Shown: piece after piece, positions 36,494-61,800 of the stretch
Position numbering within the stretch: position 1 is the first letter of the stretch
Layout of the letters: every line of letters starts with the position of its first letter
Origin: Acidobacteriota bacterium
GTDB lineage: Bacteria > Acidobacteriota > Blastocatellia > Pyrinomonadales > Pyrinomonadaceae
DNA length: 64,000 nt
Direction of reading: 5' to 3'
Assembly: GCA_025463135.1 (NCBI GenBank)
Contig: JAOAPY010000034.1
Coordinates: 1 to 64,000 of the forward strand
Notes under the pieces: generated by a model
The model's input: only the letters and a program-made list of their open reading frames with translations
What the model was told of the DNA's origin: nothing
Databases searched by the model: none
Position numbers and translations under genes: made by a program

Positions 36494-39400
36494 CTAATCA
36501 ACCACCTTGATTCTTACCTCCGCTCCATTCGTGCGTATTTCCGGAACGTACATCGCATGCCCAAGCACGGGCAGCGCGTGGAACGCGCCCGGACTCTCGG
36601 CTCGCATCTCGTAGCTCATCTGCCAGACACCTTCCGGCAGGTGGTCGATGAACAGCGCCACTTTTCGATCGCGCAGCTCCTGATAGACCCAACGCGTCTG
36701 TCCGGTGAAATCGGTACCCTGGCTGAAATTCATCAGCGTCGATTTTCTAGTGTTCAACGCCCCTGATTTTAGCTGCTTGATAAAGAGGCTCTCGCCGCTG
36801 CGAATCTCCACCGCTTCCAAACCAGCGGGCTTCAAGTCTTCGAACAGCAGGTACTCATAGTTATTCTTCGCTTCGATCGTGATAACGCTTTCCACGCGCT
36901 CGCCGCTCTTGACCGTGTCGCCGTCGTTTAAGGGGACGCGTTCTGCGACAAAACCTTTTAGCAGCGTAGGATGGTTCACCAGTTTGAAATACTGGCGGCG
37001 CACGAAAATCTCATTTCCCGCCGGCGTCAGGGGTTCTTCAAGACTGAAAAATTCCGCCTGCGCCGAGAAATATAGCGGGCCGGTACCGCTCTTGCGCCGA
37101 ATTAGAATTTCATTCTGTCCGTCGCGAATGAACTCGCGCGAAACCAGGAACTTGCTGGGGGCACTCAGGGCGTCTTCAGCAGTAACCTGTTTAGTGGCGA
37201 CCAGGTTTCCGTTGACCAACAATTCATAGCTAAGCACCGGCTGCAGTTCACCACTCTTGCGCAAATAGTCGTTGAGCGCGAGCACAACGATCGCCGTGTC
37301 GCGCGTGTTGCTCCACTGCGCGCCGCGCCGGTTTTTGATCAACCAGTTCGTCACCGGCTCGACCAGTTTGTTTTGTGGATCGATGGCCAGCAGCGCCCGC
37401 AAAGCAAACGAGGTAGCTTCGACACCGCCGTCCGACCAGCGCCAGTAAATTCCGTCTTCACCCCAGTGCGCCGTGCCGATTACAGAAAGGTCGGAAGCGG
37501 GCCCACCACTCTGGACTATGGAAGTATCCGGCTTCGAATCAATCTTCACGCCGTTCTCTAGGTTCTCGACCAGCGTCATTGCCTTATCGTTGTAACCAAA
37601 ACTGTGCGCGGAAAGCGCCAACAGGGATCGGGTGTAGGCATTGAGCTTGTCGCGATTGGTCCAGAGGTTTTCGAAAGCCCTGGCCTGGAATTTCGAGGCC
37701 CTGGAGGTCGTGGCTGCCTGATAAGTCGCCAGCGCATGCAGCATCCAGGCCTGCCCATCATAGTTTAGATCTTCTTCGACGAGCTCTTTGTCGAGATAGT
37801 CGGCGGCGCGGGCAGCAGCATCCTGTCTGACGTCGACACCTGCCTGACGGGCGAGGGTCATGCCCCAAAGCACATAGGCGGTCATGAAGTGATCGCTGTC
37901 GCCGTCTTTCCACCAGCCCCAGCCGCCATCAGCGTGTTGGAAGTTGTAAAGACGCGCCAGACTCTGTTTGGTAATCGCATCGAGTTCACTTAAATCATGC
38001 TTCCCTTTGGGATGCGTGGTCGTCGCGGTCGCGGTCTCAATACCGCCGAAGATCTTGCCCATCGCTGTCTCCGGTTTTAGACCAAGGTCGCGCAGCGTCT
38101 TGGCTGTGATCACTGCCGGCAGAAAGCGGCTCATCGTTTGTTCGGTGCAGCCGTACGGGTAATCGATCAGGTAAGGCAGCGCATCAAGCATTGTCGTCGC
38201 CATGCCTGGCGCGACCTGCACCGTGAGCATTGTGGTTTCCGTACGACGCTCTTTGGGAATATCGAGTTTGATGGCAACGCTGTCGCCGCGCATCTTGCCC
38301 GACCGCGAGACAAACTTTTCGATGCCGTGTTCATAAACGGTGAAAGTCTTTTCCATGGCGTCGGCATATTTGTCGCCGCGCGCCTCCACTTTTAGTTTGG
38401 CTTCGCTCGCATTCACCGCGGAAATTAACCAGTCAACACGAGTTTCGTCGTTGGCCTTAACTTCCAGGGCCGCAGGTGCGCCCTTGACGATTTTGCCGTC
38501 GATCAACAGACCGGCAACAGTAAGTCCCTCTGCTTGCAATGCAGGAGTCACACGCATTGCCACGTCAGTGTTGTTGTTGATAACTGCAGAGACAGTCACT
38601 TGATCGCCCACGACAAAGAAGCGTGGCGCTTGCAGCCGCACAATAAGTGGTTGTTTGGTTCTGGTAGTCGCGTTGCCAATCCCAAATTGATTTCCCGCCG
38701 TGGCGACGCGCGCGGTCGCCACCCAGGTTGTTAACGAGTCCGGATACTTAACCTTTACTGAAGCGGTGCCGTCGGCATCGGTTTTGATGTCCGGTAGCCA
38801 GAGAATGGTCGAGCGAAAATCGCTGCGCACTTGCACGGCAGGTTCCTGACCTGGTGTTGGCGCGGGCGGAGGTGTTTGCAAAGTGCCCGAGGGTCTCATT
38901 TCAAGCTTATCGATGGCTCTACCATTCAAAGGCAGACTGCCATCTTGCCTGTTGGCCAGGCCTGCGATGCTCCCAATTTCGGCCGCAGCCCTTGGAGGTC
39001 CGCCGCGGGCCCTGCTTACATCGGCGCCGTCCATCATGTAATTCTGATTGAGAGACTTGTCTTTACTCGCCTTCTCGTCGTCCTCGTTGTGCGGAACTTC
39101 CTTGCTGTCGATTAACCGCTTTTCGAATTCGATCAGGCGCGCATAAGTTTTTTGATCGAAGGTGCTACGGGTCTCGACCGTGTGCGTGCGTTTAGTGCCG
39201 TAGTAGAACTGGCGCGGATCGCCGGCATAGTCCTGCTGAATGTATTTGACTGATTCGTCGAAGATACCCAGCGCGATTTCGGCCGCGACTGGTTTACCGT
39301 CCGCATCGCGGGTGGTGATGGCCAGGGTGCCTTCTTCACGCGGCTGATACTGCTCGCGATCGGCTTTCACGTCGACTGATAAGAACTGCTGCACCGGCGG

Positions 39401-42400
39401 CACGACCACTTCTTTGGTGTCGACAAACAATTGCGCGTCGTTGACCATCGCCGCATTGAGATAAATGTTGGGTATGTGCTTTTCTTCAATCGGCAATTCA
39501 ATGAGCTTCGCCGTGCCGGTAACATGGACCAGTTTATAGCTGAAGAGATCGTCGCCTTCTACGCTAAACAAAACGTACCGATCACCCTCGGGCACAAACA
39601 GCATAACCGGAGCCGTTTGTCCCGATCGGAAGGTGTCCTTGTCCACGATAATCTCCACACCATCGTGTCGATAACCAAGATCGGTCGATCCGTTGGTGGC
39701 GACGAACACATAAGTTTCGGCTTTGACGGGTGGCAGGAACCGATCGCGCTTGTTGCCCGGCTGACTTTGGCTGCTTTGCCAGGCCACGCGATAGTAGCCT
39801 TCGCGCTCAGCCTGAAATTGCAGTTGTGCTGATCCGTCCGCATCGGTTTTCAAAGTTTGCGCAATGATGTCGTCGTGCTGATAACCACGAAACTTCAGGC
39901 GCCAGGACTTCTGGCCCTTGAGGACGGGCGCGGGGAAAGCGGACTTGCCACGGAGCAGTCGCAACTCTTCACCTTTTACCTCTCGGCCGCTGGGATCGAT
40001 CCATACTTCCCACCAATAGTCGCGGGTGACTTTGACGGTGCCCTCGGTCGTCACGGGTTGCTCGTTCGCATCGAGCGCTTTGAAATCGACTGTGACTTTG
40101 TCCTTCGGACGATAGATATTCCGCACCGGTTGTGGATAGACATAGTAGCGCTGGCGCGTGACTCTCACGGTGTCACTCGAAACAATCTCGCGGCGCGATG
40201 AATCGGTAACGCGCGCTTCGATGCGGTACTCGAAATCCTGATTGTAGTTTTCGCGTGGCGTGTCAAAAGTCAGCGTCGCTTTACCGGCGGCATCCGTCTT
40301 GATGGTTTCGCGCTTGATTACTTGACCCTGGCCGCCATAGTTGTAACGACCACGCTGGGCAAAGTCTTCGTAGTACCAGGCGTAATCGCGGTGGGGATAC
40401 CAGTAGTGATAGAAAGGACTTTGATAGACCACTACTTCGACTGAGGCGCTTGTGACCGGCCCGCCAAAGTAGTAATCCGCCTCGATGTTCACCGTGACTT
40501 TTTCACCCAGTCGAAAAGACTTTTTCTTCCCATTTTCTTCGGGTGTCTTAACCGCTACTTTGAATTCGGGCAGTTTGTATTCTTCAAGCCGAAACAGCAT
40601 GGCGGTGCCAATGCCGTTGACGCGACCCTGATCCCAGAATTGCACTCTGTATTCACCGAGCGGCAACTGTTCGGTCAGCTCGAGCGAGCCCCAGGCGCTG
40701 CCGAACGTGTTCAGGTTTGCTTTGCCCTCGCTGACCTTGGCGCCGCGGGGATCGGTGATCTCGTATTCCACGACCTGGTTCGCAGGAGTCGAATAGACTC
40801 CGTTCATCATGCGCCGCGCGATGAATTTCCACTGGACGGTTTCTTTGGGCCGGTACGCGGGGCGATCCGTAAAAGCATAGATACGCCAGGATCCCCCTTC
40901 ACTGTCGTTGCCGTTGCCATTGCCGCCGGCGAAAGCCTGACGTTCGCCGCTCGCTGCAACTGCAAAGAGGTTGTGGTAACTGCCGGATCGCAGTTGAAAC
41001 TGTGCCAGGCCTTCAGCGTTAGTCGTTTGTCTCAGCTTGCGCCAGTGCCAGGTGTCTTTAATGTAATAACTTTCCCAGAGAGCGACGCCGGCGTTGGCCA
41101 CCGGCGCGCCGGTCACTGCATTGCAGAAATAAACCAGGGCCTGTTTGCCGGAGGCCTTGAGTACCAGAGAAACATCAGTAATCAGGACCAGATCGCGCGA
41201 AGAAAGCGAACCACTCCTGGCTTCGAGCAAATAGGCGCCGAGGGGCAACTTGCCTTCGATGCGTATTTCTTCGTCGATTGGTTTGTGATCTGTCTTACTG
41301 TCGAGTGTTCGAGACCATGACTTGACCGCTATCAGGCCGGCGGTCGGCAACTTTTGCATCCAGCCCTCGCTGTCACCTTCGCCGTCTTCTTCTTCAATGT
41401 TTTTTGTGAACCGAACGTTGCGGGTGAGATCGATCTTGTAAAGGGCGAAGTCGACGCGCTTCACATTGCGCGCACTGAGGTTGAACTGGAGTTCGGAATC
41501 GGGCAGAAAAATATTCGAGACGCTCGCGCTGATTGTTGCCTCAGTGATGTTCTTGATTTGTTCCTGGGCTTGGTCGAAATATCGAGTCTCGCCCTTCGCG
41601 AACTCTCTCGTCAGGCGGCGATAAAGTTCGAGCGCCTTAACGTAATCGGGCTCCTGCTGCCACTGGCCTTCATCCAACTGGCGAATGATGCCATTGCTGT
41701 TCATCCATTCGGCGTAATAGTACAAAGCGTCGACATACCAGGGAGTTTGTTTGCCGGCGTGAAGCGCCGCTTCAAATTCTTCCGGCACACGCTGGCGCGC
41801 TTCCCAGTCGCCTCCGGCAACACGCATGGTCATCGCGATCAGATAATGCAGATGTGCTTTGTCGCGATCCGTGGCACTGATCTGCAGCGCGTTTTCCAGA
41901 ATGTTCAGAGGGATGTAGTTGCCATAGACCGAGTAGAAGTAATACTGGTTGGGCCGGGGTGGTTCGGCGGCCTTGAAAACAATTTTGAGATAGCGATCAC
42001 GCGCCCGCTCGAGGTCGCGTTGGCCAGCCCACCAGTCGAGCGCCTGTTGATAATGCGTCCACGCCGATCCCCAATCCATCGCATTTCGACGGGTCCAGAA
42101 AAAATCGGCGAGCGATTCATGCGCTTCGGCCCAAATGATGTCACGTTCATCGACAGCGTCATTGGTGCGAATCAATTCTGCGAGCTGCTTTTGCGCCTGC
42201 TCGATCTTTGTGTTGTCCGATGTTTCCGTGGCGGCCTGGGCACGCCATAAAGTGTCCGCCAAACGAAAGTCAACCCAGCGAGCTTCGGCGGGTGGCAGCG
42301 CCGCTTGGTTGGCTTTGGCGTAGAGTTCATGGGCGCGGGCATATGAGCCCTGCGCATAGGCGCGTTCGGCATCAGCCTTCAACTGTGAATAATCCGGTTG

Positions 42401-42499
42401 TTGGGCCAACGGCCCCGGCGTTGCTCCGGCATGGGAATCCCCGGTGGCATTCAATATGAGGAGCAAGACAAGTACTGTGATTGAGATAATTGTTTTCAT
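36494..42499 (-). CDS. Alpha-2-macroglobulin family protein
   Basis: A 2001-aa secreted protease-trap protein. It has a signal peptide (about 1-28) with no lipobox, then a helical, TPR-like N-terminal part (about 35-340, ERAYAQGSYARAHELYAKAN), then a long series of macroglobulin beta-sandwich domains. A Gly/Pro/Ala-rich, bait-like stretch (RARGGPPRAAAE) comes next, then the alpha-2-macroglobulin core ending in the thioester motif C1451-T-E-Q (YPYGCTEQTMSRFLP). A toroid domain (HADGGWGWWKDGDSDHF) and a receptor-binding-like C-terminus follow. I chose the ATG at 42499, with AGGA 6 nt upstream; the longest frame adds 61 unconserved residues. No PbpC-type partner is adjacent, which is unusual for the classical bacterial type. 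Confidence 0.93.
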   Translation of the reverse strand: MKTIISITVLVLLLILNATGDSHAGATPGPLAQQPDYSQLKADAERAYAQGSYARAHELYAKANQAALPPAEARWVDFRLADTLWRAQAATETSDNTKIEQAQKQLAELIRTNDAVDERDIIWAEAHESLADFFWTRRNAMDWGSAWTHYQQALDWWAGQRDLERARDRYLKIVFKAAEPPRPNQYYFYSVYGNYIPLNILENALQISATDRDKAHLHYLIAMTMRVAGGDWEARQRVPEEFEAALHAGKQTPWYVDALYYYAEWMNSNGIIRQLDEGQWQQEPDYVKALELYRRLTREFAKGETRYFDQAQEQIKNITEATISASVSNIFLPDSELQFNLSARNVKRVDFALYKIDLTRNVRFTKNIEEEDGEGDSEGWMQKLPTAGLIAVKSWSRTLDSKTDHKPIDEEIRIEGKLPLGAYLLEARSGSLSSRDLVLITDVSLVLKASGKQALVYFCNAVTGAPVANAGVALWESYYIKDTWHWRKLRQTTNAEGLAQFQLRSGSYHNLFAVAASGERQAFAGGNGNGNDSEGGSWRIYAFTDRPAYRPKETVQWKFIARRMMNGVYSTPANQVVEYEITDPRGAKVSEGKANLNTFGSAWGSLELTEQLPLGEYRVQFWDQGRVNGIGTAMLFRLEEYKLPEFKVAVKTPEENGKKKSFRLGEKVTVNIEADYYFGGPVTSASVEVVVYQSPFYHYWYPHRDYAWYYEDFAQRGRYNYGGQGQVIKRETIKTDAAGKATLTFDTPRENYNQDFEYRIEARVTDSSRREIVSSDTVRVTRQRYYVYPQPVRNIYRPKDKVTVDFKALDANEQPVTTEGTVKVTRDYWWEVWIDPSGREVKGEELRLLRGKSAFPAPVLKGQKSWRLKFRGYQHDDIIAQTLKTDADGSAQLQFQAEREGYYRVAWQSSQSQPGNKRDRFLPPVKAETYVFVATNGSTDLGYRHDGVEIIVDKDTFRSGQTAPVMLFVPEGDRYVLFSVEGDDLFSYKLVHVTGTAKLIELPIEEKHIPNIYLNAAMVNDAQLFVDTKEVVVPPVQQFLSVDVKADREQYQPREEGTLAITTRDADGKPVAAEIALGIFDESVKYIQQDYAGDPRQFYYGTKRTHTVETRSTFDQKTYARLIEFEKRLIDSKEVPHNEDDEKASKDKSLNQNYMMDGADVSRARGGPPRAAAEIGSIAGLANRQDGSLPLNGRAIDKLEMRPSGTLQTPPPAPTPGQEPAVQVRSDFRSTILWLPDIKTDADGTASVKVKYPDSLTTWVATARVATAGNQFGIGNATTRTKQPLIVRLQAPRFFVVGDQVTVSAVINNNTDVAMRVTPALQAEGLTVAGLLIDGKIVKGAPAALEVKANDETRVDWLISAVNASEAKLKVEARGDKYADAMEKTFTVYEHGIEKFVSRSGKMRGDSVAIKLDIPKERRTETTMLTVQVAPGMATTMLDALPYLIDYPYGCTEQTMSRFLPAVITAKTLRDLGLKPETAMGKIFGGIETATATTTHPKGKHDLSELDAITKQSLARLYNFQHADGGWGWWKDGDSDHFMTAYVLWGMTLARQAGVDVRQDAAARAADYLDKELVEEDLNYDGQAWMLHALATYQAATTSRASKFQARAFENLWTNRDKLNAYTRSLLALSAHSFGYNDKAMTLVENLENGVKIDSKPDTSIVQSGGPASDLSVIGTAHWGEDGIYWRWSDGGVEATSFALRALLAIDPQNKLVEPVTNWLIKNRRGAQWSNTRDTAIVVLALNDYLRKSGELQPVLSYELLVNGNLVATKQVTAEDALSAPSKFLVSREFIRDGQNEILIRRKSGTGPLYFSAQAEFFSLEEPLTPAGNEIFVRRQYFKLVNHPTLLKGFVAERVPLNDGDTVKSGERVESVITIEAKNNYEYLLFEDLKPAGLEAVEIRSGESLFIKQLKSGALNTRKSTLMNFSQGTDFTGQTRWVYQELRDRKVALFIDHLPEGVWQMSYEMRAESPGAFHALPVLGHAMYVPEIRTNGAEVRIKVVD

Positions 42500-42590
42500 A
42501 AATCGTCCTATGGGTGCCACGAGGTGAGCGGCACTTTTCGGTATCACTGTTGCGGTCTGAGATCGATTGCCATTTGCGAAAGAGGCCACT

Positions 42591-42679
42591 TTACAGAACC
42601 AGGAGCGGTAGCGACCGGATTCCTCACTCAACCTGCAATGCAGAAACCGATAGCCAATCAGGGTCAGTAGGTTCTGTAA
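42591..42679. repeat. 89-bp element ending in TTACAGAACC
   Basis: Terminal inverted repeats TTACAGAACC (42591-42600) and GGTTCTGTAA (42670-42679). One end extends to CAGGAGCGGTAGCGACCGG, which is also found, slightly changed and on the opposite strand, at 238-258. The rest of the 448-bp gap 42500-42947 shows no convincing gene. Confidence 0.65.
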
Positions 42680-42947
42680 CACCCCGCTCTACGTGCGTGA
42701 CTTCCTCTAATCAAATTAAACCGAATACATTAGCTGTAGTTCCTGATTCTTATCCAATGCTTCGCGGCGTAGCTTCGTCCACAAACGCATCGCAAATCCC
42801 CGCTCTCCGCTAATGAACGCCTCAACCGCACGGGACTTGCGCCCGACGCCTTTTGAAACAAAGCCAGACTTGCGCCCGTCATAAGGCCGGCAGATTACTC
42901 CCACTGCTTGCAGACATGGCAATCCCGGTTGGGTTAGGATAACGCGC

Positions 42948-45161
42948 ATGGCCAGGTTGGAACGTTATGTGGGGCAGGTGCTTGACGAAAAGTACCGGCT
43001 CGAGCGCTTGCTCGGGCAGGGCGGCATGGGCGCTGTGTATCTCGCGACGCACCTGGGCACCGAACGTTATGTCGCGCTCAAATTAATCACGCCCCAGTTC
43101 ATGAGTAACGAGGAGTTCGTCGAGCGATTCAAACGCGAAGCGCGGGCCGCCGGACGCTTGCGCCATCCAAACGTCGTCGACGTGACGGATTTTGGTTTCG
43201 CTCGCGTGGGAGCCGACCGAGTTGCTTACCTGGTGATGGAGTACCTGGACGGCTGCACACTCGGCGATGTGTTGAGTGAGGAAAAGCGTCTGCCTCTCGA
43301 TTGGGTGGTCGACATTCTGGAGCAGGTTTGTTCTGCAGTACACGAAGCGCACCAGCAGGGCATTGTGCATCGCGATCTGAAGCCCGACAATATCTGGCTC
43401 GAACCGAACCGCTTGGGCGGCTATCGCATCAAGGTGCTCGACTTTGGTATTGCGAAACTCGCTGAAGGCGGCGCGGTTGCGCAACCGCTGACCGCTGCAA
43501 CAGGTGGAGTAATAGGCGTGGGCGGCGCGCCATCGCAAATGCGACCTGCCCAATCACTGCCTCCGCAAACAAGGGCAGCAACCGCGCGACCCGGTGCAGT
43601 TGGGGATCTGGAGACGGACACGCTCATTTATGAAGAGGGCGATGCCTCAGGCGTCGGTGCGAGCGCCACTATTAATCAGGGGGATGAAGCACTCACGCAG
43701 AATTTCTTTGGCGGCGCGCATACGGAAGTGCGCGAAGGTAACAGTGTCGTAGGCCTTACGGCCGCTCACCACGCGGGCGAGTCTGACAACACACAACTCT
43801 TCGCCACGCCTTTCGAAGATAAACATCAGACGGCGGCGGCGGGTGCGCGTGCAACTCAAGCCATCGTTGACGGTGACCAAACTTTGATGTTTGGTGAAAA
43901 GACGGCGCACGACGGCGGACAGATTGTCTCGGCCTCAGCGACGGCGCAGGGCGCGGGATTGACGCGAGTTGGCGCGATCATGGGCACGCCGCTTTACATG
44001 TCACCCGAACAATGCCGCAGCGCAAAGTTGGATGCGCGTTCGGATGTTTACAGCCTGGGTGTCATTGCCTATCAAATGCTCGCCGGTGATTTGCCTTTCA
44101 AGGGCATTACTTCGGCGGTGATGGACGGCCATCTGCGTACGCCACCACCCGCTTTGCGCGAGCGGAATCCGAAGATATCCAAACGCGCGGCCAAAGTAGT
44201 TATGTCCGCGCTGGCTAAAGATCCATCAGAGCGGCCGCAGACAGCCTTTGCCTTCGCCAGCTCGTTGCGCGCGCAATCGGATGGGATCGGCTCAATGTAT
44301 CGACGCGCCTTTGCCCTCTACAGCGAGTACTTCCCGAAGTTCCTGCGGATTTCATTGATCGCTCATCTCCCGGTGATCGTGTTCACGATGATCCTGTTGG
44401 CGTTGGACCTTTCTGAGAAGTCATGGAGCCAGGGAAGCAAGGTCACGAAGATTGTGGTCCTGGTTATTTTCGTGATCGTGGGCTTACTGCAAATTATTTC
44501 TTACTTTCTGGCGGGTTCGGCTATTTCGGGTATGACCGCGGTTATCGTGACGCAGTTATCGGTTGCTCCTTTGCGTCCGGTGGAATTGCGCACTGCTTTT
44601 GCCGTGGTGAAACGTCGCTGGCGTCCGTTTCTGAATACCAGTATTCGCTTGGCGATGCGCATGATACTTGGCTTCATGCTGTTCGTGATTCCCGGTTTTT
44701 TCGTCATGGTGCGTTATGCGCTTTGGGCGCCAGTGGTGCTGATGGAAGGACTCGAGAAGAAGGCGGCCAGGCACAGGGCGCGCGAACTGGGGTCCCGTTC
44801 GTGGCGCACTGTTATCACGGTAATCGCGCTTCAGTTCCTGATTCCCATGGTGATCAGCGGACTACTCGGCGCCGTGGTCGGCCGGTTTTCACTGAAGAAA
44901 ACCAGCACCGGTGTCCATCTTACCCTGGGCAAGGTTTCCCAACACCTCGTGGGACTGGCCAACATTTTTATCGTTCCGTTGATGTCGATAGTGCCGGCGC
45001 TGCTTTATTTGAAGATGCGGCAACTGGGCGGCGAGACCCTCGCTTCCGCGTTGGAACAAATTGAAGAAGCCGAGACGGGTCGCAGCCAGTGGCAACAACG
45101 AATGCGCTCGCGCTTGACGGTGACGCCCCCTTCCGGACAAACCCCTCGCAGCGGTTCGTAA
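42948..45161 (+). CDS. Membrane Ser/Thr kinase with activation-segment insertion
   Basis: A 737-aa Hanks-type kinase with G-loop LLGQGGMGAVYLA (21-33), Lys45 (VALKLI), HRDLKPDN (141-148), DFG (165-167), SPEQ (352-355) and DVYSLGVIAYQML. Between the DFG and GTPLYMSPEQ lie about 165 extra residues (about 175-338), rich in Gly, Ala and Thr. They carry four similar motifs: T225-L-I-Y, T250-Q-N-F, T282-Q-L-F, T312-L-M-F. The C-terminal 290 residues form a five- or six-helix membrane domain, somewhat like the membrane domain of glycerophosphodiester phosphodiesterases. AGGA lies 8 nt upstream of the ATG. It is divergent from the A2M gene. Confidence 0.93.
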   Translation: MARLERYVGQVLDEKYRLERLLGQGGMGAVYLATHLGTERYVALKLITPQFMSNEEFVERFKREARAAGRLRHPNVVDVTDFGFARVGADRVAYLVMEYLDGCTLGDVLSEEKRLPLDWVVDILEQVCSAVHEAHQQGIVHRDLKPDNIWLEPNRLGGYRIKVLDFGIAKLAEGGAVAQPLTAATGGVIGVGGAPSQMRPAQSLPPQTRAATARPGAVGDLETDTLIYEEGDASGVGASATINQGDEALTQNFFGGAHTEVREGNSVVGLTAAHHAGESDNTQLFATPFEDKHQTAAAGARATQAIVDGDQTLMFGEKTAHDGGQIVSASATAQGAGLTRVGAIMGTPLYMSPEQCRSAKLDARSDVYSLGVIAYQMLAGDLPFKGITSAVMDGHLRTPPPALRERNPKISKRAAKVVMSALAKDPSERPQTAFAFASSLRAQSDGIGSMYRRAFALYSEYFPKFLRISLIAHLPVIVFTMILLALDLSEKSWSQGSKVTKIVVLVIFVIVGLLQIISYFLAGSAISGMTAVIVTQLSVAPLRPVELRTAFAVVKRRWRPFLNTSIRLAMRMILGFMLFVIPGFFVMVRYALWAPVVLMEGLEKKAARHRARELGSRSWRTVITVIALQFLIPMVISGLLGAVVGRFSLKKTSTGVHLTLGKVSQHLVGLANIFIVPLMSIVPALLYLKMRQLGGETLASALEQIEEAETGRSQWQQRMRSRLTVTPPSGQTPRSGS

Positions 45162-45266: not shown

Positions 45267-46568
45267 ATGCGTCCAATAATCCGAGTTGAAAACCTGAGCA
45301 AGCGGTACCGCATCGGCGCACGCCAGCCTTCATACCCAACCCTGCGCGAAAGGCTGGTGGAGCTAACCGAGAGTCCATTAAAACGCCTGAGGAAGGGCCA
45401 GAAGACAGGACACACCGCGGTGTGGGCCCTTAAAGATGTCAGCTTCGACGTTGCTGCGGGCGAAGTGGTGGGCATCGTCGGGCGCAACGGGTCGGGCAAG
45501 TCCACGCTGCTAAAAATACTCTCGCATATCACGGAGCCCACCGCGGGCCGCGTCGAGCTTTACGGACACTGCGGCAGCCTGCTCGAAGTCGGCACGGGAT
45601 TTCATCCCGAGTTGACCGGGCGCGAGAACATTTACCTTAACGGCGCAATCCTGGGAATGTCGCGCAGCGAGATCAGGCAGCGCTTCGACGAGATTGTGGC
45701 CTTCGCCGAGGTGGACCAATTCATGGACACCGCGGTCAAACATTATTCATCCGGCATGTACCTGCGTCTGGCCTTCGCCGTTGCAGCCCACCTGCGCACG
45801 GAAATTTTGTTTATCGATGAAGTGCTGGCCGTCGGCGACGCGGAATTTCAGAAGAAGTGCCTGGGAAAGGTCGAGGGCATCGCGAGAGAGGGACGCACGG
45901 TGCTCTTTGTCAGTCATAATCCTGGTGCAGTAACTCAATTGTGCCGGCGGGCCCTGTGGCTTAATGACGGGCAACTGGAGTCATGCGGGAACTCACGCGA
46001 CGTCGTGGCCGCCTATTTATCTAAGTCTTACTCCGGAAAACACAGCTGGGTGCAATCGGCGCGGGACGCAATGGAATCCTGCCGAGAGATTTCTCTCAGC
46101 TCAGTGCGTCTTTGCCAGGGAACGCAGCAAGCCACTGGTGTAGTGCGCTTCGATCAGGAGTTCACCGCTGAAATCGAGTACGAGGTGAAAAAGGCAGTGA
46201 CCGATGTGAGTATTGTGTTGCGCATTGTCACCGAGTCAGGAACAATCGTTTTTTCAAGCAGCGATACAGACACGCCGAGCCCTCGAGTGGGTTTTTTATG
46301 TGAGGAATCCTGGCGGGACGACTGCGGAGCAGAGCTGCGATCCCAAGGACATTACATATCAACGTGCAAGATTCCGGGTCGGCTCTTGAAGTCCGGTAGC
46401 TTTTTTCTCACGGTCGGCGCGCGGCGGCAGCGGGGAAACTGGATCGAATTTCATGAGAACCTGCTGATGTTCTCCGTGAGTACGGTTGGCAACCCGGTGC
46501 ATTCCAGACACCTGGGCGTTATCACGCCCATTCTGGATTGGGAGGTCCGGAGGTTAAGGGAAGTTTGA
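45267..46568 (+). CDS. Wzt-like polysaccharide ABC ATPase
   Basis: A 433-aa ATPase of an ABC exporter for O-antigen or teichoic-acid-like polymers. The N-terminal domain has Walker A GIVGRNGSGKSTLLK, signature HYSSGMYLRLAFAVA, Walker B TEILFIDEVLAVGDAEF and the H-loop FVSHNP. The C-terminal half (about 265-433) is a Wzt-type carbohydrate-binding beta-sandwich that recognises the polymer's terminal modification. A Wzm permease would normally sit next to it, but none lies in the window. It opens the rightward glycan cluster. Confidence 0.92.
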   Translation: MRPIIRVENLSKRYRIGARQPSYPTLRERLVELTESPLKRLRKGQKTGHTAVWALKDVSFDVAAGEVVGIVGRNGSGKSTLLKILSHITEPTAGRVELYGHCGSLLEVGTGFHPELTGRENIYLNGAILGMSRSEIRQRFDEIVAFAEVDQFMDTAVKHYSSGMYLRLAFAVAAHLRTEILFIDEVLAVGDAEFQKKCLGKVEGIAREGRTVLFVSHNPGAVTQLCRRALWLNDGQLESCGNSRDVVAAYLSKSYSGKHSWVQSARDAMESCREISLSSVRLCQGTQQATGVVRFDQEFTAEIEYEVKKAVTDVSIVLRIVTESGTIVFSSSDTDTPSPRVGFLCEESWRDDCGAELRSQGHYISTCKIPGRLLKSGSFFLTVGARRQRGNWIEFHENLLMFSVSTVGNPVHSRHLGVITPILDWEVRRLREV

Positions 46569-46577
46569 AAATCAAGC

Positions 46578-46700
46578 ATATGAGATCTCATCTCAGATCT
46601 CAGATCTCAGATCTCAGATCCGAGATGCTAGATCGCGATCGAGATGCGAGATGCGAGATGCTAGATCGAGATCCGAGATATGTGATTCGAGATTCGAGAC
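46578..46700. repeat. CAGATCT/GAGATCC heptamer-type low-complexity repeat
   Basis: Imperfect repeats of CAGATCT, GAGATGC and GAGATCC, many of them self-palindromic (AGATCT), between the Wzt-like gene and the first GT2 gene. They stay open in the GT2 frame and create a false N-terminal extension (to 46538). Confidence 0.75.
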
Positions 46701-46705
46701 TCCAG

Positions 46706-47656
46706 ATGGCAACGGTTAGTTTGATCATTCCCACTTTCAATCGCCCGCAGCTGCTTGGCAGGGCCGTCGCGAGCGCTTTGAATGCGGGGACCGATGTTGA
46801 GGTGATCGTGGTTGATGATGCCTCAACAGACAACACCGCGAGCGTGTGCGCAACCTTGCGCGGCATAAAATATGTGCGGCTCGATCGCAACCAGGGCGTG
46901 GCGGGCGCTCGCAACGTTGGACTGCTTGTGAGTACCGGCGATTTTGTTGCGTTCCTCGATGACGATGATCTGCGGCTGCCCGGCTCGTTGGACCACCAGG
47001 TTTCTTTGCTACAAGCGGATCCGGAAGCTTGCTTCATCGCTGGTGCAGTACTTCTCGCAGATCAGAACAGTATCCCCACCGGGAAAGTTGCCGAGCCTGG
47101 CTCCGAGAGTGGCGATCTCTTCTGGAAGGTTTTAGAGTTGGACCTGCACCTGATACCCGGGTCGGTCGTGGTTCGCAAGTCGTGCTTGTTCGAGGTTGGT
47201 CTTTTCAATAGTCACCTGGCTGGAATTGACGATTGGGACTTGTGGACGCGCCTGGCGGAAGGTCGTCCGGTGCTGGTGGACCAGCGTCCAGTTTGTATTT
47301 ATCGATGCGCCAGTCCTTCATCGGGGCAAGGTTCTTCTGCCCTGGCTCGGCACCTGTACGCTGCAGTTCAACATCAAAGGCGGCTACTGTTGTTGCCGCG
47401 CGCCCTGAAGGCAACTGCGAGTCAACGCCGTTCGGTCCGCAAGCGTACGCGGCGCCGTATTGCGGACACGCTCAGTTGGCGCGCCGCCGAAGAGTTGCCG
47501 CGCGGCGCTCTTCGGTTTGCAGCCTCAAACTTTTTCACTGCGTTGCGGCTCAGTCCCTTCTGGGCAGCACGTCCGACGCATTTTCGCGTATTATGTAGGA
47601 GCACCGTGGCGCGACTCAGGAAACGACACAGCCAAACACCCGCCCCAGTTAGCTAA
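46706..47656 (+). CDS. Glycosyltransferase family 2 (first of a pair)
   Basis: A 316-aa GT-A enzyme. The start is VSLIIPTFNRPQLLGRAV; then VIVVDDASTDNT, the donor/metal site FLDDDDLRLPGSL, and GIDDWDLWTRLAE, where the ED/WD pair fits the catalytic base region. The tail (from about 230) is Arg-rich and helical, probably for membrane contact. I chose the ATG at 46706 because everything upstream is repeat. It is a paralogue of the next gene (same DDDD and WDLW blocks). Confidence 0.9.
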   Translation: MATVSLIIPTFNRPQLLGRAVASALNAGTDVEVIVVDDASTDNTASVCATLRGIKYVRLDRNQGVAGARNVGLLVSTGDFVAFLDDDDLRLPGSLDHQVSLLQADPEACFIAGAVLLADQNSIPTGKVAEPGSESGDLFWKVLELDLHLIPGSVVVRKSCLFEVGLFNSHLAGIDDWDLWTRLAEGRPVLVDQRPVCIYRCASPSSGQGSSALARHLYAAVQHQRRLLLLPRALKATASQRRSVRKRTRRRIADTLSWRAAEELPRGALRFAASNFFTALRLSPFWAARPTHFRVLCRSTVARLRKRHSQTPAPVS

Positions 47657-47686
47657 GCGTCCTTTTCCACCCGCGAACGTTCAGGA

Positions 47687-48586
47687 ATGACACCGAAAAT
47701 CAGCGCTATCATCGCCACGCGCAATCGTTGCGCCGTGCTCCCTCGCGCTATCGAGAGTGCGCGTTGCGCAGGTAGTGACGTGGAAATCATCGTCGTGGAC
47801 GATGCCTCAGAGGATCGCACTCGTGAAGTCTGCGAAGCCCGGGCTGATGTTCGTTACCTGCGTGCGCGGCGAAGACTGGGACTCGGCGGGGCGCGTAACG
47901 TCGGCATCGTAGCCAGCAGTGCCCCGTACATCAGCTTTCTGGATGACGACGATGTGCGATTGCCTGCTTCACTTGATACTCAAATAGAGATCCTCGAGGC
48001 GCAACCAGAAGCGGGAATGATATACGGCAGGGCGCTTTATGGCGACGAAGCTTGCCGATCGAAAGGCGGCTTCTATCCGGAGCAATGTCCCCGGGGCGAT
48101 ATCTTTTGGCAGTTGTTGAGTTCAAATTTTATTCCCTGTCCCACGGTCGTTTTCCGGCGCGCCTGCCTGACGCGCATAGGTCTGCTTGATGAAGCAGCTC
48201 CGGGCATCGAGGACTGGGATCTGTGGGTGCGCATCGCCGAACTTTATCCGGTGCTTGCCCTTGAGCAGGCTGTGGCCATCTGGAGGCAGCCGACCCCTGC
48301 GTCGGGGCAGTTCACGTCGTGCTCCGAACGGCTGCACCGAGAGGCGCGCCGCCTGCACCGTGACAAGTGGCTTCGATTGCCGCGTGCGTTTGAGGCTGGA
48401 AGCGCGCGACGCCGCAAAGCCAGGCGCGTGTTTTCCGATTACGCGTCCAGGCAGATGATTTGGGAAGCTGCGGGCCGGATGAAAGACAGACGCTTGACGG
48501 ACTTTGCACGGGTCGCATACGCGGTGGCGCGAATGCACCCGGGAGGCCTGGGCAGACAGGTAGTCAGCGCTCTCAGATCTCGCTAA
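47687..48586 (+). CDS. Glycosyltransferase family 2 (second of a pair)
   Basis: A 299-aa GT-A enzyme: ISAIIATRNRCAVLPRAIES, IIVVDDASEDRT, SFLDDDDVRLPASL and GIEDWDLWVRIAELY. Similar to the preceding gene along its whole length, so the pair arose by duplication. An AGGA lies directly against the ATG, so the start is somewhat uncertain. The C-terminal 80 residues are Arg-rich. Confidence 0.9.
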   Translation: MTPKISAIIATRNRCAVLPRAIESARCAGSDVEIIVVDDASEDRTREVCEARADVRYLRARRRLGLGGARNVGIVASSAPYISFLDDDDVRLPASLDTQIEILEAQPEAGMIYGRALYGDEACRSKGGFYPEQCPRGDIFWQLLSSNFIPCPTVVFRRACLTRIGLLDEAAPGIEDWDLWVRIAELYPVLALEQAVAIWRQPTPASGQFTSCSERLHREARRLHRDKWLRLPRAFEAGSARRRKARRVFSDYASRQMIWEAAGRMKDRRLTDFARVAYAVARMHPGGLGRQVVSALRSR

Positions 48587-48604
48587 TTAAGGTCAAGAGC
48601 AAGT

Positions 48605-48662
48605 GTCCGACAAAACTTTAGTTTGTCGCGGCGTTACGACAAGCTAAAAAAGCTTATCGGAC
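48605..48662. repeat. REPIN-like element, copy 4
   Basis: GTCCGACAAAACTTTAGTTT with a TGTCG end, spacer, then CGACAAGCTAAAAAAGCTTA with a TCGGAC end, 58 bp. Same two-hairpin layout as copy 3, between the second GT2 gene and the GT4 gene. Confidence 0.8.
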
Positions 48663-48712
48663 GTCAAACCGAGTGCGGGTTGAACGGACATGATGGATGC
48701 ACCGGCAGCACA

Positions 48713-50014
48713 ATGAAAATCCTCTTCAGCAAAAATAATTTCGCCGGTCCAATCAGTGGAGCGGATGAGATCGCCGTCACTTATGCGGTTGAACTACAGG
48801 CCGCTGGTCATGAAACGGCAGTGCTGCTCGTGTCCCCGCCGGCGGTTGGCGATCCTTTGGCCGCTCGCCTGCGCGCTGCCGGAGTGCCGTTGGCTACCCT
48901 GGCGTCGCCTGCTTTCAGGACTTCGCTCGCTGCCGGTCGCAAGCTTGCGATCGGCGCCATGCGCGCTTTCTCGCCGGCCAGTCAAATGATCCGTACCCGG
49001 TCACGTAGACTTGTCTTTGATCTCCTGCAACGCTATCACGATACTTGCTGCGAATACCTGAGACGCAATCGACCCGACGTACTTCACGTCATGACGCCTG
49101 ACCCGGGAGCCGTAATGCTAATCCGGGCCGCGCATGCGACCGGCGTCCCCGTCGTCTATCAGGAAGTCGGTATCCCTTTCCACCCGCCGGGCTTTGAAGA
49201 AGTATATGAGCGCTTCGTTAGCGTTTTGCCGTTGTGCGCCGGGATTGCGGTGCTCTCTCCTCTCCTGGCTGATGAACTCAATCGCGTGCTTCCCGATCTG
49301 ATCCCAGCCTGCGTGGTTCCGCTCATTTCTCAGGATGCTACCAATGGCGGGCCGCCGAGGCCCCAATCGGAGTCCGTTAGTTTCGGGTTCGCCGCTCGCC
49401 TTGAACACCTCAAGGGGCCGCTCCAACTCATCGAAGGCTTTAGCATCGCTCAACGCGTGCACCCGGCAATGGAGCTGAAGATCGCCGGCGAGGGTTCACA
49501 ACGGCAACAGATAGCTCATATGCTCCACCAAATGGGACTTCAAAAAAAGTGTCACCTCGTTGGTGTTTACAAAACCCTGAAGGAAAGAAATCAATTCATG
49601 CGGAGCATTGATGTCTTTGTCCTGCCCTCGCTCAGCGAAGGCACGCCGAACGCAATCATTGAGGCAATGGCTCAGGCGAAACCAATCATTGCAACTTGTG
49701 TGGGTGGCATCCCTGATGTGGTCAGCGCAGACGAAGGAATTCTGGTCCCCTCAGGCGACGCTCGAGCGTTGGGAGAGGCCATGGCGAGGTTAGCGAGAGA
49801 TGAGGAACTGCGAAAAAGAATGGGACGCGCGGCGCGGGAGAAGTATGAGCTGGTGTTTGCACCCAAAGTCGTCTTACCGCTGTTGCTCGAATTTTATCAG
49901 CGGGTAATACAGCACCACAGCAATGGTAATAACGGCGCGAAACGTCCCCTAAAAGAAATCGAGCATCCGTGGTCAGCCGCGGAGCGCTGCGCAGCAGTTC
50001 GTAGCGGTGAGTGA
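48713..50014 (+). CDS. Glycosyltransferase family 4
   Basis: A 433-aa GT-B enzyme. It starts MKILFSKNNFAGPISGADE, followed by a long helical region (about 75-110) not typical of the core. The donor domain has FAARLEHLKGPLQLIEGFS, LKIAGEGSQRQQIAHML and the EX7E motif in EGTPNAIIEAMAQAKPIIAT. I chose the ATG at 48713; the frame begins 30 codons earlier, within the REPIN-like repeat. The C-terminal 30 residues are polar and unconserved. Confidence 0.9.
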   Translation: MKILFSKNNFAGPISGADEIAVTYAVELQAAGHETAVLLVSPPAVGDPLAARLRAAGVPLATLASPAFRTSLAAGRKLAIGAMRAFSPASQMIRTRSRRLVFDLLQRYHDTCCEYLRRNRPDVLHVMTPDPGAVMLIRAAHATGVPVVYQEVGIPFHPPGFEEVYERFVSVLPLCAGIAVLSPLLADELNRVLPDLIPACVVPLISQDATNGGPPRPQSESVSFGFAARLEHLKGPLQLIEGFSIAQRVHPAMELKIAGEGSQRQQIAHMLHQMGLQKKCHLVGVYKTLKERNQFMRSIDVFVLPSLSEGTPNAIIEAMAQAKPIIATCVGGIPDVVSADEGILVPSGDARALGEAMARLARDEELRKRMGRAAREKYELVFAPKVVLPLLLEFYQRVIQHHSNGNNGAKRPLKEIEHPWSAAERCAAVRSGE

Positions 50015-55455: not shown

Positions 55456-55876
55456 GAGTCGATAGCGGAGTAACCTCGCTCACCTTCCTCAATCAATAGA
55501 TTGCTGCGTCATCTCAAGGTGGACGGTTCAACTGAGGGCGCGCCTAAAAACTCATTCAACCCAACCCTCCTATAGCATTTCTGATCATCCGTTAGCTTGC
55601 CTGGCCAAATCTGAAACGAATCCTGACTCTAAGCTCGGGCACGGCTCGTGCAGTGTTTGTCTTGGGAGAGAATAAGACACCGAAAATAGACTAAGCCGGC
55701 ACTTTCACCCCACTACTTCGCCCAGCCTGCTCTTTTTCTCCGCAGCCTTCTAAGCACGTCAGCTTCATCCCGGAACCCTCGGTTCCGGAGCAGGCAGCAA
55801 TTTGTCCCAAAGTTTTGCGTCAGGATGCGTCCCGCCGTCTGGGCCCGTTCATCGCGCCCGCGCGTTGCGAGTTGAT
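55456..55876. other. Leader region of the giant secreted protein
   Basis: No gene seen in 55456-55876. A perfect hairpin CCGGAACC-CTC-GGTTCCGG lies at 55770-55788, about 88 nt before the ATG, and could be a leader structure; there is no T-tract. A longer frame back to 55802 begins with TTG but adds only unconserved residues. Confidence 0.4.
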
Positions 55877-58800
55877 ATGAGAATCATGAGACATCACCGA
55901 ACAAATTTTCTTGCGGTAGTTATTTTTTTGGCGTTGGTTGTTGCAGCGGCGAGCACCGGTTATCCGGGATGGCTAACGCCACCGACATTCGCGCAGGGTC
56001 CGACGGAAGTGGGCAGGTCCGGCGCGAACGCCCAGGCGCAATCCGTCCCCGTCCTTACCCGGCAGAACGCGCCGGATATTCCTCAGTGTCGTGAGATTCT
56101 GAACCAGGAGATCCTTGATCTCGTCAACGCGGCCTCGGAAGATCCGGCGGAAGTATTCGAGGAGAACCGCCGCGCCCACCCGCACATGATTATGATGCCG
56201 CCGCCACTGGACTGCGCCAGCAAGCTATGGTTGGCAGCGCGGCAAAATAGCCGCGCGGCGAACTCTACGGCGTCTGCGATTAGCGCCGAGTTATTGTCTT
56301 TGCGGCAGCATCCGATTGAATCGGTCTTTAATCTCGACGCTCTTAATGGCTCGGTAGGCACGAACACTGATCTCGGAAACGGCGTCGAGGGGTATCAGGG
56401 CGAGAACAGTATCTCCATCGACCCTAACAATCCGCTCCACCTCATCGCGTTCTCAAATACATTTTATAAAGATGCCACTCCGCAATGTCAGTCGCCAACG
56501 GGCGGTACCGCGAACACCTTCGGCACCATGGCGCTCTTCGGTTCGACCGATGGCGGCGCCACTTGGATCTACAACTGCGCGCCGTGGCCGGCGACACTCA
56601 CCGGCGGGGTAACCGGTGCGACCTTCTGGTTCGGCAGCGACCCGGCGCTGGCGTGGGACAACCTCGGACGAGCCTATGCCACCTACATGCTCATCTCGCA
56701 AAGTGCCTCAGCCTCCGGCGCCGCGATAGTCGTGGCCCGCTCGTCGGACAACGGCGCGAGCTGGCAGAGCCTGGGCACTGTCGTCAACGGCATCGCCTCT
56801 ACCACGCAGGGCAATGACAAAGAGATGATGGCCATCGACAACACGTCGGGTCAGACCTTTTCACATTCCGGTCGTATCTATGTGATCTGGGACGCGGCGA
56901 ACGCCGAGAAGATAGCGTATTCAGACGATGGCGCTGCCTGGACCACCGTCAACTTTCCATCTAATACCGGCGCCATCGGCGGCAACATCGTCGTGGGAGC
57001 GGACGGTACCGTTTACGTGATCTGGAGCCGCTACAACGTCGAAACTATTGTCTTCTCCAAGTCGACAAACGGCGGCGCTACCTGGACCGCGCCTCAGGTC
57101 ATCGCTACGCTCGCGCTTCAATCCTTCGGCTCCAACAACAAACCCGCAGCACAGGACAAGCGAGGCATCAACGGGTTTGGAGCGATCGATATGGATCGGA
57201 ATTCCGTCTCCCCTTCCTTCGGCAACCTGTACGTCGCCTTCCCCGACTTCCCGTCCGGAACAACCACGGGTGCGGACATCAACACCTACGTTGTCAGGTC
57301 TACGAATGGCGGAAGCTCATGGTCCACGCGGCTCAAAGTGAACGACGACAATTTCGGCGCGACGCAAATATTCCCCTGGCTGGCGGTCGATCAGTCTGAC
57401 GGCACGGTGAACGTTTCGTGGTACGACACCCGACTCGATCCACTCAACCGCCAGACGCAGATGGTCAGCTCGCGCTCAGTTGACGGCGGCGTATCGTTCG
57501 AGCCAAACGTCCTCGTCACTGACGGCGGCTCGGTGTGGCGGAACAACGTCAACTACACCGATGAAAATAGTGCCGACAATACGACCTACAATTCCAACCA
57601 GTACGGCGACTACTCAGGCATAGCCGCGTTCAATCGTCAGGTTCATCCCCTATGGACCGACTCGCGCATGTTTTTCCCGGTCGCCGACACGCAGTCGCCG
57701 ACGCGCAGAGAAGATAATGCGACTGCAGTGCTCACTTACTGTTCGGCGCCTTCGGCAGTCGGCGCACCGGCCGTGAACTCGTCGATAACTCCGAGTGTCG
57801 CGATTTCGTGGAGCGCGCCGGCGGGATGGGGCACCAACGCAACCAACGGAACGTACTCCGTTTTCCGTAACACCGACACGGTTTTTCCGTCCGGTTCGCC
57901 TGTAGCTTCGGACCTAACCTCAACCAGCTATGTCGACACGACGGGAGCAGGCGGCACAACTTATTACTACTTCATTCGCGCAAAAAATAACTGCCCAGGC
58001 ACGACGCTGACCCCGATGAGTACGGATTCTTCTGCCTCCGCTGCCGTAGACTTCGGCTCCAATGGAACGCCGGCGGGAACACTGCAGGGAACCGTGATGG
58101 CTGGCAGCAATCCCGTGAGCGGTGTCGTCGTGAGCGCCGGAACATTGTCGGCCACAACGAACGCCGGCGGCTTCTATTTGTTCCCATCCATTAGCGCCTC
58201 CACTTACACAGTGTCGGCCAGCCCTACCGGTTACAACCCTGCGTCGGTTAACGGAGTCGTGGTCACGGGCGGCGGCACGACCGTACAGAATCTCGCACTC
58301 TTGCCCGTTACGTCCGGCTCCTGCTTCACCGATACGACCTACATCGACTTCTCTCCCGGCGCGGGGTCGAACGTCGACATTGCCGGCAACCCCGGCAACG
58401 TGAAACTCAGAAACCTTGGCATTGAAGGGCCCGACCAGAACAGCTCGCCCGCAGCTCTTTCGACTACCAACAACCTGAGCGCGACCACCTGGACCGGACA
58501 AACGTTCCGCGCCGGGGTTACCGGCAATCTGACGAAGATGAACGTGGGTCTCGGTCTCGCGTCGGGAACGTCGGGCACGATCACCGTGGAGATTCGCAAC
58601 CTCAACGGCATAAATCCCGGCACGACCGTCCTGGCGACCACCACCGCGGGTCCCGTTACAAACGTCGGCACCGCGGCGCTATACACGGTGACCTTCGCGA
58701 CGCCGGCGGCCGTGGTCAGTGGAACCAGCTATTCCGTTGTTCTAAGGACCAGCGTCGGCAGCACGGTCTTCGGCGTCCGCGGCAGTACGGCGGGCGGCAG

Positions 58801-61800
58801 CTCGCTGGCCAATGGTCAGGTGTTCACCACGACTACCAGTGGTACTACGTGGACTGCGGTCGCGGCGGACCTCTGGTTCACCACCTATGTAACGCCGCCG
58901 CTCACCTATGTGGCGTCCGGCAATTTATTCTCCGGCGTGAAGGATGCGAATCCGGTTATTGGCCTGGTTCCTCGTTGGTTAACTCTATCGTGGAATGCGA
59001 CGGCTCCGGCGAACACCAGCGTCCAATTCCAGGCGGCGGCCAGCAATAACGTTAATGGCCCGTTCAACTTCGTCGGCCCGGACGGAACAGCCTCAACATT
59101 CTTTACGACCATTGGGGCAACGCTTTCTCAGTTCAACGGCTTTCGCTATCTGAAGTACGAAGCATTGTTGAGTACGACTGACAATATCATCACGCCGACC
59201 TTGAACGATGTCACAGTCTGTTTTGACAACGACACACCGTTGATCGCGGCAACTGCTCCGCTTTCAAGACAACAAGGCGCTGCCATCAATGCACAAATAG
59301 CAATCGTCAGCGATCCGGGCCAGGCGGCCAATACGCTGACGGTGACTGCCACACCGTTGACTGGAACCGGCGTCACCATCACCAACATCAGCATTGACGC
59401 GGCGGGCAACGTCATGGCGGATGTCGTTGCGAGTTGTACAGCTACGAACTCAACGTTTACGTTGACAGTAACAAACAGCGCAAGTGCGACTGCAACGGCA
59501 ACGTTAACCGTCAATATCACAGCCACTCCAACACCGACGATCACACCCGGAAGCCCGACGACGTTCTGCGAAGGCGGCAGCGTCACCTTGACCTCAAGCA
59601 GCGCGGGCGGCAATCAGTGGTTCCTGGGCGGCAATCCGATCGGTGGGGCGACGAATCAGACTTACATTGCTACTGCTTCGGGTAACTACACCAACACGGT
59701 CACGGACCTTGGCTGTCTCAGTAGTGCTTCAGCAGCGATGCCGGTGACGGTGAATCCGACTCCCGCGACAACGACGATCACGCCCGATGGTCCGACGACA
59801 TTCTGCGAAGGCGGCAGCGTTACGCTGACCTCGAGCAGTGTCAGCGGCAATCAATGGTCTTTGGACGGCAATCCGATCGGTGGCGCGACGAATCAGACTT
59901 ACATTGCCACTGCTTCCGGGAATTACACGAACACGGTCACGGATCTTGGTTGCACCAGCTCCCCTTCAACCGTGACAGCGGTGACGGTGAATCCGATCCC
60001 CGCAACGCCGGCCATTACGCCTGAGGGTCCAACGACATTCTGCGAAGGCGGCAGCGTCACGTTGACCTCGAGTAGCGCCGGCGGCAATCAGTGGTACCGG
60101 AACGGCAGCCCGGTTGGCTTCGGCTCTGGACAGCAGTACATCGCCACAGCCTCGGGCGATTACACCGTCGCAGTGACAACCAGCGGCTGCGCCAGCGCGG
60201 CCTCCGCGGCGACCACGGTAACCCCGAACGTCGCGCCGATGCTTACTTATCCAGATCCACAATCCGTTGTTTTCGATGACTCTTTGAGTGTCTCTCCCAC
60301 GTCTGCGAGCGCTTCGATCACAGGCTACGCGGTACTAAGCGTTGTGCCCGCCTTGACGACCCCGCCTACCGTCAGCGGGAGTGGAGTTGTCTCGATCACA
60401 AACGCTCAAACCGGTGGTTCGCACATCGTCACGATTCGAGCCACTGATGGTTGCGGCGTAACTGTGGACGCGAGTTTCACTTTGAACGTTACGCTTACCA
60501 CGACGTATTCCGATCCGTCGGGCAACTGCGGTGGGAACACGCCCTGCTACAACACCATCCAGGCGGCCATCAACGCCCTGACCAGTAGCGGCACCGTGAA
60601 TGTAAGCGGCGGCACCTTCAACGAAGATGTGAACCTGACGGCCAACTCAACTTTGAACCTCAACGGAGACACGACGCTCAATAGCTTGACGATGCCGGCG
60701 GGAACATTGAATGCGAGCAACGGCGGCAGCTTTACCCTGACCCTGGTTAGCGGAGACTGGACCAACAACGGCGGCACGTTTAATCCGGGCACGGGCACGG
60801 TAAGTTTCACGGGCACTGGACAAACTATCAGTAGCACTCACTCGACGATCTTCAACAACCTGACGATTGGCGCCGGCGGTGCCATCGTGAATGGCGCCTC
60901 TGATCGAAGTGCGGCTGTCCCTTCCTCCATCTCGATGGACGCGACGGTAAATCGTGTGCTCGCGCTTACCGGCGATCTGACAGTTACCAGTCCAGCGAGG
61001 CTGATCATGCCCGCGACTGCAAGTTCAACAGGAAGCGGCGACGTCATCGGCAACCTTGAGCGGTTGGGATTTGTGACCGGTGCCTGTGCCGGCGCGCCGT
61101 GCTTTAACACACTCAGCCTGGGCAACCCCGACAACCAGATTACGATCACGGCCGGCACAGCGCCCGACAGCATCCTGGTCAACCTGACGAAATCCGCACC
61201 CGCAACTTACGCGACGGCGGTGGAGCGGAATTACGACATCACTGAAACCGGGGGCAGTGGCTTCACCGCCACCCTGCGCTTGCATTATCTGGATTCAGAG
61301 TTGAATGGTAATACGCCCGAAGCAAACTTGAATCTGCGACGGTTCAACGGCTCGACCTGGCCGGCGGTGGTTCACTCTGTGCCGGTGGACACAACCAACA
61401 ATTGGGTGGAAAGCAATGCGGTCGCGGGATTTTCACAATGGACCATTGCCGCGCTGGCGCCGACGGCGGCCAGCGGCAGTATCAGTGGCCGGATACTTAG
61501 CGATGGCAAGCCACTCGAAGGCGCGGTCGTTAGCTTGAGTGGTGGGCAAACACGCAAATTGATCACCGACGCAAACGGCAACTACCGGTTCGAAAACGTG
61601 GAAGTGGGCGCCCTTTATGTCGTCGTCCCCTCCCGCGCTAACTTTAATTTCAGTCCATCAGAGCGGGCCTTCAGTCAAGTCGGCAATCAAACGGAAGCAG
61701 CCTTTACCGGGATCCCGATCGATGAAACTTTGAATGCCCTGGACACGCCGGAGTATTTTGTGCGGCAACAGTACCTGGACGTTCTCGGCCGCGAACCTGA

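Follow-up and report, generated by a model that had tools for sequence, protein, structure and literature searches.

A row of conserved threonine motifs in the activation segment, predicted to be disordered, of a membrane-anchored kinase family from Acidobacteriota

The comparison of homologous sequences strongly supports the view that a row of short threonine motifs, located in the activation segment of a membrane-anchored Ser/Thr kinase of Acidobacteriota, is under purifying selection, while the linker around the motifs drifts. The kinase gene lies in a stretch of 64,000 nucleotides (the window) at positions 42948-45161 of the plus strand, on which all kinase features described here are found, and encodes a Hanks-type kinase of 737 amino acids, which matches the Pkinase model in two stretches (E 5e-46). 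The N-lobe and the catalytic loop up to DFG are formed by residues 16-167 (42993-43448), as indicated by the domain match and the conserved residues. The catalytic residues are K45, E64, the HRD at 141-143 and the DFG at 165-167 (from nucleotide 43440); K45, E64, H141, R142, D143, K145 and D165 are invariant in 69/69 distinct homologues aligned. DFG is followed by an insert of residues 168-338 (43449-43961). T339 (43962-43964), located 3' of the insert (LTRVGAIMGTPLYMSPEQ), is probably the canonical T-loop threonine; it is kept in 69/69 distinct homologues, and we take it to be the counterpart of the T-loop threonine of PknB. The activation segment ends with SPEQ at residues 352-355 (44001-44012). 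The protein thus possesses a Pkinase domain with the catalytic Lys, Glu, HRD, DFG and SPE/APE, by which Hanks-type kinases (PF00069) are recognized, and judged by these residues the window kinase is catalytically intact and probably active. The C-terminal membrane domain, residues 444-737 (44277-45158), contains hydrophobic stretches near residues 468-486, 502-534, 570-598, 622-640 and 667-685.

An AlphaFold2 prediction for the window protein, run with 32 homologues, has a pLDDT of mostly >80 in the kinase and membrane domains and of <50 over residues 168-345, which is why the insert is predicted to be disordered. Between the kinase fold and the first stretch in the membrane there is only a short helical link of around 25 residues. 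A structure comparison revealed that the closest solved fold to the predicted kinase is that of PknB, with the complex of PknB and its substrate GarA as the best match, and the first 41 of the best 50 solved-structure matches are bacterial kinases, a point against an AGC/MAST ancestry. The mycobacterial kinase PknB is, like the window kinase, a Hanks-type membrane Ser/Thr protein kinase (STPK). Its activation loop is short, and it has a PASTA ectodomain where the window kinase carries a multi-helix membrane domain. A 2005 study by Villarino is said to have found that PknB recruits the FHA protein GarA via its activation loop.

The long gap between DFG and SPEQ had been pointed out in a preliminary description of this DNA, and both motifs are found where it placed them: residues 165-167 and 352-355 are 187 residues apart, which is unusual compared to the 28-61 residues between DFG and SPE in other kinase loci of the same genome. 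This range is based on 17 of 19 fetched loci (L009 and L017 were left out) and includes distances of 33 residues in the nearest paralogue, L002, 32 in L007 and 31 in L005. In addition, the two matching halves of the kinase domain are at most 85 nt apart in 30/31 other kinase regions of the genome, and the 31st lacks a second match. A short activation segment, which is usual for Hanks-type kinases and does not define them, is therefore absent from the window kinase.

Homologues have so far been found in Acidobacteriota only, mostly in Pyrinomonadaceae and Blastocatellia, using a peptide-pattern scan and a profile search within the phylum. Scanning named genomes for a single peptide pattern yielded 46 loci, which are titled Acidobacteria, Pyrinomonadaceae, Blastocatellia or Chloracidobacterium, with the exception of one 'bacterium'. 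When the C-terminal domain of the window kinase was used as a query, matches were obtained in 33/60 genomes, its own included. The C-terminal profile detected 27/28 listed genomes of the same family (again including its own) and 8/19 other genomes listed from the same class at E <1e-30; 263 genomes without a match were taken from the list order to be more distant. Among the matches listed, those from elsewhere in the phylum score lower, and most of them fall into open frames that span about 200-400 residues and are too short for a kinase of the window type. GPDPase_memb (PF10110) and UPF0259 (PF06790) are known membrane domains, which are resembled by part of the family and are here fused to a kinase: at E <= 0.5, the former model matches 17/30 C-terminal domains (best 4e-7) and the latter 10/30 (best 2e-4), while the window's own C-terminal domain matches neither. 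It was also observed that the GPDPase_memb/UPF0259-like domain is joined to the kinase in Blastocatellia, and that most of the weak matches in other Acidobacteriota resemble separate membrane proteins. An in-frame insert of 53-184 amino acids is located between the same flanks in 104/106 loci (L067 and L126 were left unparsed by the insert pattern), which results in 71 distinct inserts, the window's included. The concern voiced early on that the segment could be an assembly or frameshift artefact is dispelled by these in-frame inserts.

Every one of the 71 distinct inserts contains Tx[ILVM], with one to nine copies each; inserts devoid of conserved Thr motifs, which would have spoken against the initial proposal, did not appear. 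The motif patterns were picked after reading the first 30 inserts and were then applied to the 71 distinct ones, of which 49 with <50% mutual identity were used for counting, after the last four insert residues (LTRV or similar) had been trimmed. The family consensus is [D/E]xxTx[ILVM] with mostly F, L or Q at +3. The full motif, [DE]xxTx[ILVM][FLIMVQYW], was observed 92 times compared to 4.1 times in shuffled inserts (sd 2.0, maximum 11, 1000 shuffles, which preserve composition only), and it is missing from 3/49 representative inserts. The corresponding Ser version occurs five times, compared to 3.8 in the shuffles. Residues enriched around Thr are Glu at -3 (2.5-fold, p 3e-24), Ile at +2 (3.4-fold, p 2e-27) and Phe at +3 (4.0-fold, p 3e-13), followed by an approximately twofold enrichment of Arg at -2 and +1, Ile at +1, Val at +2 and Gln at +3. 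For Ser, which is present 625 times compared to 684 Thr, no neighbouring residue is enriched in the 49 inserts at the threshold used for Thr. The density of the full motif is 15.3 per 1000 amino acids in the inserts and 0.48 in these proteins outside the insert. It is 0.72 in 34 other ORFs of kinase and FHA loci, which represent the longest ORF per locus and include three overlapping pieces of one gene (L054, L059 and L060) and, for some FHA loci, a neighbouring gene. No such array was seen in other kinases of the genome: the longest ORFs of 19 loci contain ten full-motif matches with no more than two each, and 6/10 of these are of the D-x-R-T-D form and are located inside the folded kinase domain.

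Within the window insert, TLIY (T225), TQNF (T250), TQLF (T282) and TLMF (T312) were confirmed at the places and spacings (25, 32 and 30 residues) given in the preliminary description; across the family, the spacing of motifs varies from 3 to 51. In the window insert alone, T-x-x-[FYW] occurs four times compared to 0.61 expected (p ~0.0016), a pattern that was chosen post hoc. Tx[ILVM] is found four times compared to 2.7 (p 0.27), a count that takes in a TEV and leaves out T250, and [DE]xxTx[ILVM] once compared to 0.30 (p 0.27), neither of which is significant. Since Tx[ILVM] and the acidic forms do not exceed chance in this single insert, it is the family that carries the argument. The description of the motif as threonine-hydrophobic-aromatic had to be revised: the Thr motif is real, but an aromatic residue is just one option at +3, as T-x-x-[FYW] is missing from 18/49 inserts, and the motif was redefined as [D/E]xxTx[ILVM]. 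The acidic or Asn/Gln neighbours mentioned at that stage hold loosely; T225 is the sole motif Thr of the window with an acidic residue at -3.

Three sites, A, B and C, can be aligned and follow one another in order along the insert. They were compared in 69 homologues, namely those with a distinct insert and the glycine loop in one ORF (2/71 were dropped). Site A, E222-x-x-T225-L-I-Y (43611-43631), has T225 in 62/69 homologues and E or D at position 222 in 65/69; site B, T282-Q-L-F (43791-43802), has T282 in 59/69 and I or L at +2 in 52/69; and site C, T312-L-M-F (43881-43892), has T312 in 64/69 and L, I, M or V at +2 in 63/69. Three of the four motifs originally proposed are thus present family-wide, but the fourth, TQNF (43695-43706), is not conserved, with a Thr at position 250 in 8/69. 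The retention of residues was analyzed in 27 disjoint sister pairs, in which 81.5% of the motif Thr are identical compared to 53.7% of the other Thr (Wilcoxon p 5e-6), 37.1% of Ser and 46.2% of the remaining residues. Only one of the 27 pairs is weaker than that of the window, L021/L022, in which 44% of the motif Thr and 52% of the other Thr are kept. In 26 of the pairs (L088/L110 was left out), 79 of the differences at motif Thr codons are synonymous and 34 non-synonymous, a non-synonymous:synonymous ratio of 0.43, whereas other Thr codons show 59 and 170, a ratio of 2.9 (Fisher p 6e-15); the corresponding numbers are 117 and 354 for Ala and 59 and 134 for Gly. Alignment in disordered inserts is uncertain, a weakness shared by the retention and the codon comparison. 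The alignment of homologues, which had been suggested as a check, hence gave the expected picture of conserved motif Thr in a drifting linker.

These results bear on the idea that the segment is a neutral low-complexity linker or an artefact, which we consider extremely improbable. The window insert is rich in Ala, Gly and Thr, as would be expected from such a linker, and in the insert of L045 a 33-bp unit is repeated 1.9 times, thereby duplicating a DEKGTAI motif. However, 104/106 loci are in frame, and the purifying selection on the motif Thr argues against neutrality, unless the insert alignments are systematically wrong. Neutral low complexity was rejected based on the motif excess, the retention in sister pairs and the codon test. 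The repeat in L045 further indicates that arrays can grow by duplication.

It is also conceivable, and in our view rather improbable, that the motifs act as unphosphorylated short docking peptides, i.e., acidic-Thr-aliphatic-hydrophobic strands, which bind a partner or substrate directly. The enrichment of Ile at +2 and Phe at +3 outranks that of Glu at -3, which would fit this idea. On the other hand, Ser stands in for Thr no more often than chance predicts and faces a motif Thr at only 6/286 positions in the sister pairs, and the motif Thr are better retained than the +2 residue, which is identical in 50% and aliphatic or Phe in 79% of cases; this points to phospho-Thr chemistry.

The favoured explanation, for which the arguments on either side appear evenly balanced, is that the Thr array is autophosphorylated by the kinase once T339 is phosphorylated and is then read by FHA proteins. 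According to this model, which was derived from sequence comparisons, a disordered strip of 50-180 residues between DFG and the canonical T-loop of the membrane-anchored kinase would present a varying number of [D/E]xxTx[ILVM][F/L/Q...] sites, with T225, T282 and T312 as the family-wide ones. T339 would be phosphorylated first, and the kinase would then phosphorylate the Thr residues of the strip, either in cis or on adjacent kinase molecules of the membrane. The resulting phospho-Thr sites could recruit FHA-domain proteins, thereby coupling effector recruitment to the active state of the kinase. Bacterial STPKs are described to act often on Thr (PMC4238996), FHA binding to be modulated by the pT+3 residue (PMC5549992), and PknA-dependent pThr sites to have an acidic residue at -3 and a hydrophobic one at +3, as well as Pro at +2 and a basic residue at +4 (PMC7164672). 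The acidic -3 and hydrophobic +3 positions are common to the PknA context and the family motif, whereas Pro at +2 and the basic +4 residue are missing here, and the Ile at +2 is not part of the PknA context. The bias for Thr over Ser together with the PknA-like positions counts for autophosphorylation and FHA docking; however, the Thr bias alone can equally reflect a preference of the kinase, which counts against the docking reading.

Precedents for such docking come from several STPKs. One report (PMC12077195) states that the phosphorylated juxtamembrane segment of PknB binds FhaA, that the juxtamembrane segment of StkP from Streptococcus pneumoniae contains seven Thr phosphosites and that juxtamembrane STPK segments were suggested as docking sites. 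Like PknB and StkP, the window kinase combines several Thr motifs within one segment that is flexible, here by predicted disorder; however, the StkP segment, as described there, is located between the kinase and the membrane helix, while the insert lies between DFG and SPE. Given the short helical link to the membrane, the strip may take over the docking role of the PknB and StkP juxtamembrane segments. An FHA protein that binds phosphorylated activation-loop residues of an STPK is described for the PknQ-MupFHA system of a Mycobacterium ulcerans plasmid (PMC4238996), which differs from the present case in that two residues of the loop (Ser170 and Thr174) are involved and the FHA gene is encoded on the same plasmid. 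A further-reaching version of the docking proposal is that the activation segment was turned into a scaffold, in which a disordered phospho-Thr ladder displays several FHA docking sites only on the active kinase; this is put forward tentatively, as a possibility with more doubt than confidence attached. It would imply that recruitment and activation are one event rather than two modules, and that the number of motifs differs between species.

FHA genes were of limited help in evaluating the docking model. FHA domains are present in 60/60 genomes searched, regardless of whether the kinase family is found there, and their presence has thus no discriminating power; as a test of docking it was discarded as uninformative. 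No FHA domain was found near the kinase in six-frame ORFs of 46 flanked loci and the 64-kb window, using a search that recovered 5/5 held-out FHA domains. Linkage to an FHA gene, which is common for docking segments and does not define them, is therefore absent here, and this counts against the docking reading. The missing FHA gene would be in agreement with the main rival to the docking array, a Greatwall-like regulatory insert, in which phosphorylation of Thr by the kinase itself or another kinase moves the insert onto the active site or away from it, and FHA proteins are not recruited. Greatwall/MASTL likewise has a long, poorly conserved insertion with several phosphosites in its activation segment (PMC11961639), and this insertion of around 550 residues activates the kinase on phosphorylation. 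The window kinase likewise carries a long insert within the activation segment, and the fact that sites A, B and C can be aligned in order along it speaks for a switch. However, the retention of T339 in all aligned homologues does not favour this explanation, and the variable number and spacing of the motifs are easier to reconcile with docking sites that work independently than with a fixed switch; we regard a Greatwall-like switch as unlikely, yet as one to be taken seriously. Greatwall/MASTL further differs in that it is a eukaryotic MAST-related kinase with a ~550-residue insert, whose S/T-P sites are phosphorylated by Cyclin B-Cdk1, and no evidence for a common origin with the window kinase was found.

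Multi-Thr docking segments and activation-segment inserts are each already known separately. A bacterial kinase that combines both was not found in the literature searched, which lacked most subscription journals. If the docking model is true, a bacterial kinase would place docking sites within the very loop by which its activity is set. This would also provide a clean, testable phospho-Thr motif for a phylum in which Ser/Thr kinases and FHA proteins are abundant; the genome of the window alone contains 31 other kinase regions and 15 FHA domain matches. The motif may then be of use in predicting the substrates of kinases and the ligands of FHA domains in Acidobacteriota.

A gene encoding a VWA-domain protein is a recurrent neighbour of the kinase, as it is found in 20/45 loci, downstream in 17 (at a distance of 0-417 bp) and upstream in three. 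Among the loci L066-L111, examples are located at L097:7010-10054, L092:6933-8810 and L083:2891-4234, and the VWA identity was checked with Pfam in these three cluster members; the N-terminus of the L097 protein resembles a signal sequence. No VWA gene was seen near the window kinase, whose neighbours lie outside the VWA cluster. A large bacterial alpha-2-macroglobulin (A2M, MG2, TED and bMG10 domains; 36494-42682, minus strand) is encoded upstream of and divergently from the kinase gene. Directly 3' of the kinase follows a gene for an ABC ATPase with a Wzt C-terminal domain (45267-50014, plus strand), and the three ORFs thereafter read like glycosyltransferases by eye. A further ORF of 2232 amino acids (55802-62500, plus strand) contains BNR, carboxypeptidase-regulatory, Ig-like and DUF4214 domains and perhaps encodes a large surface or secreted protein.
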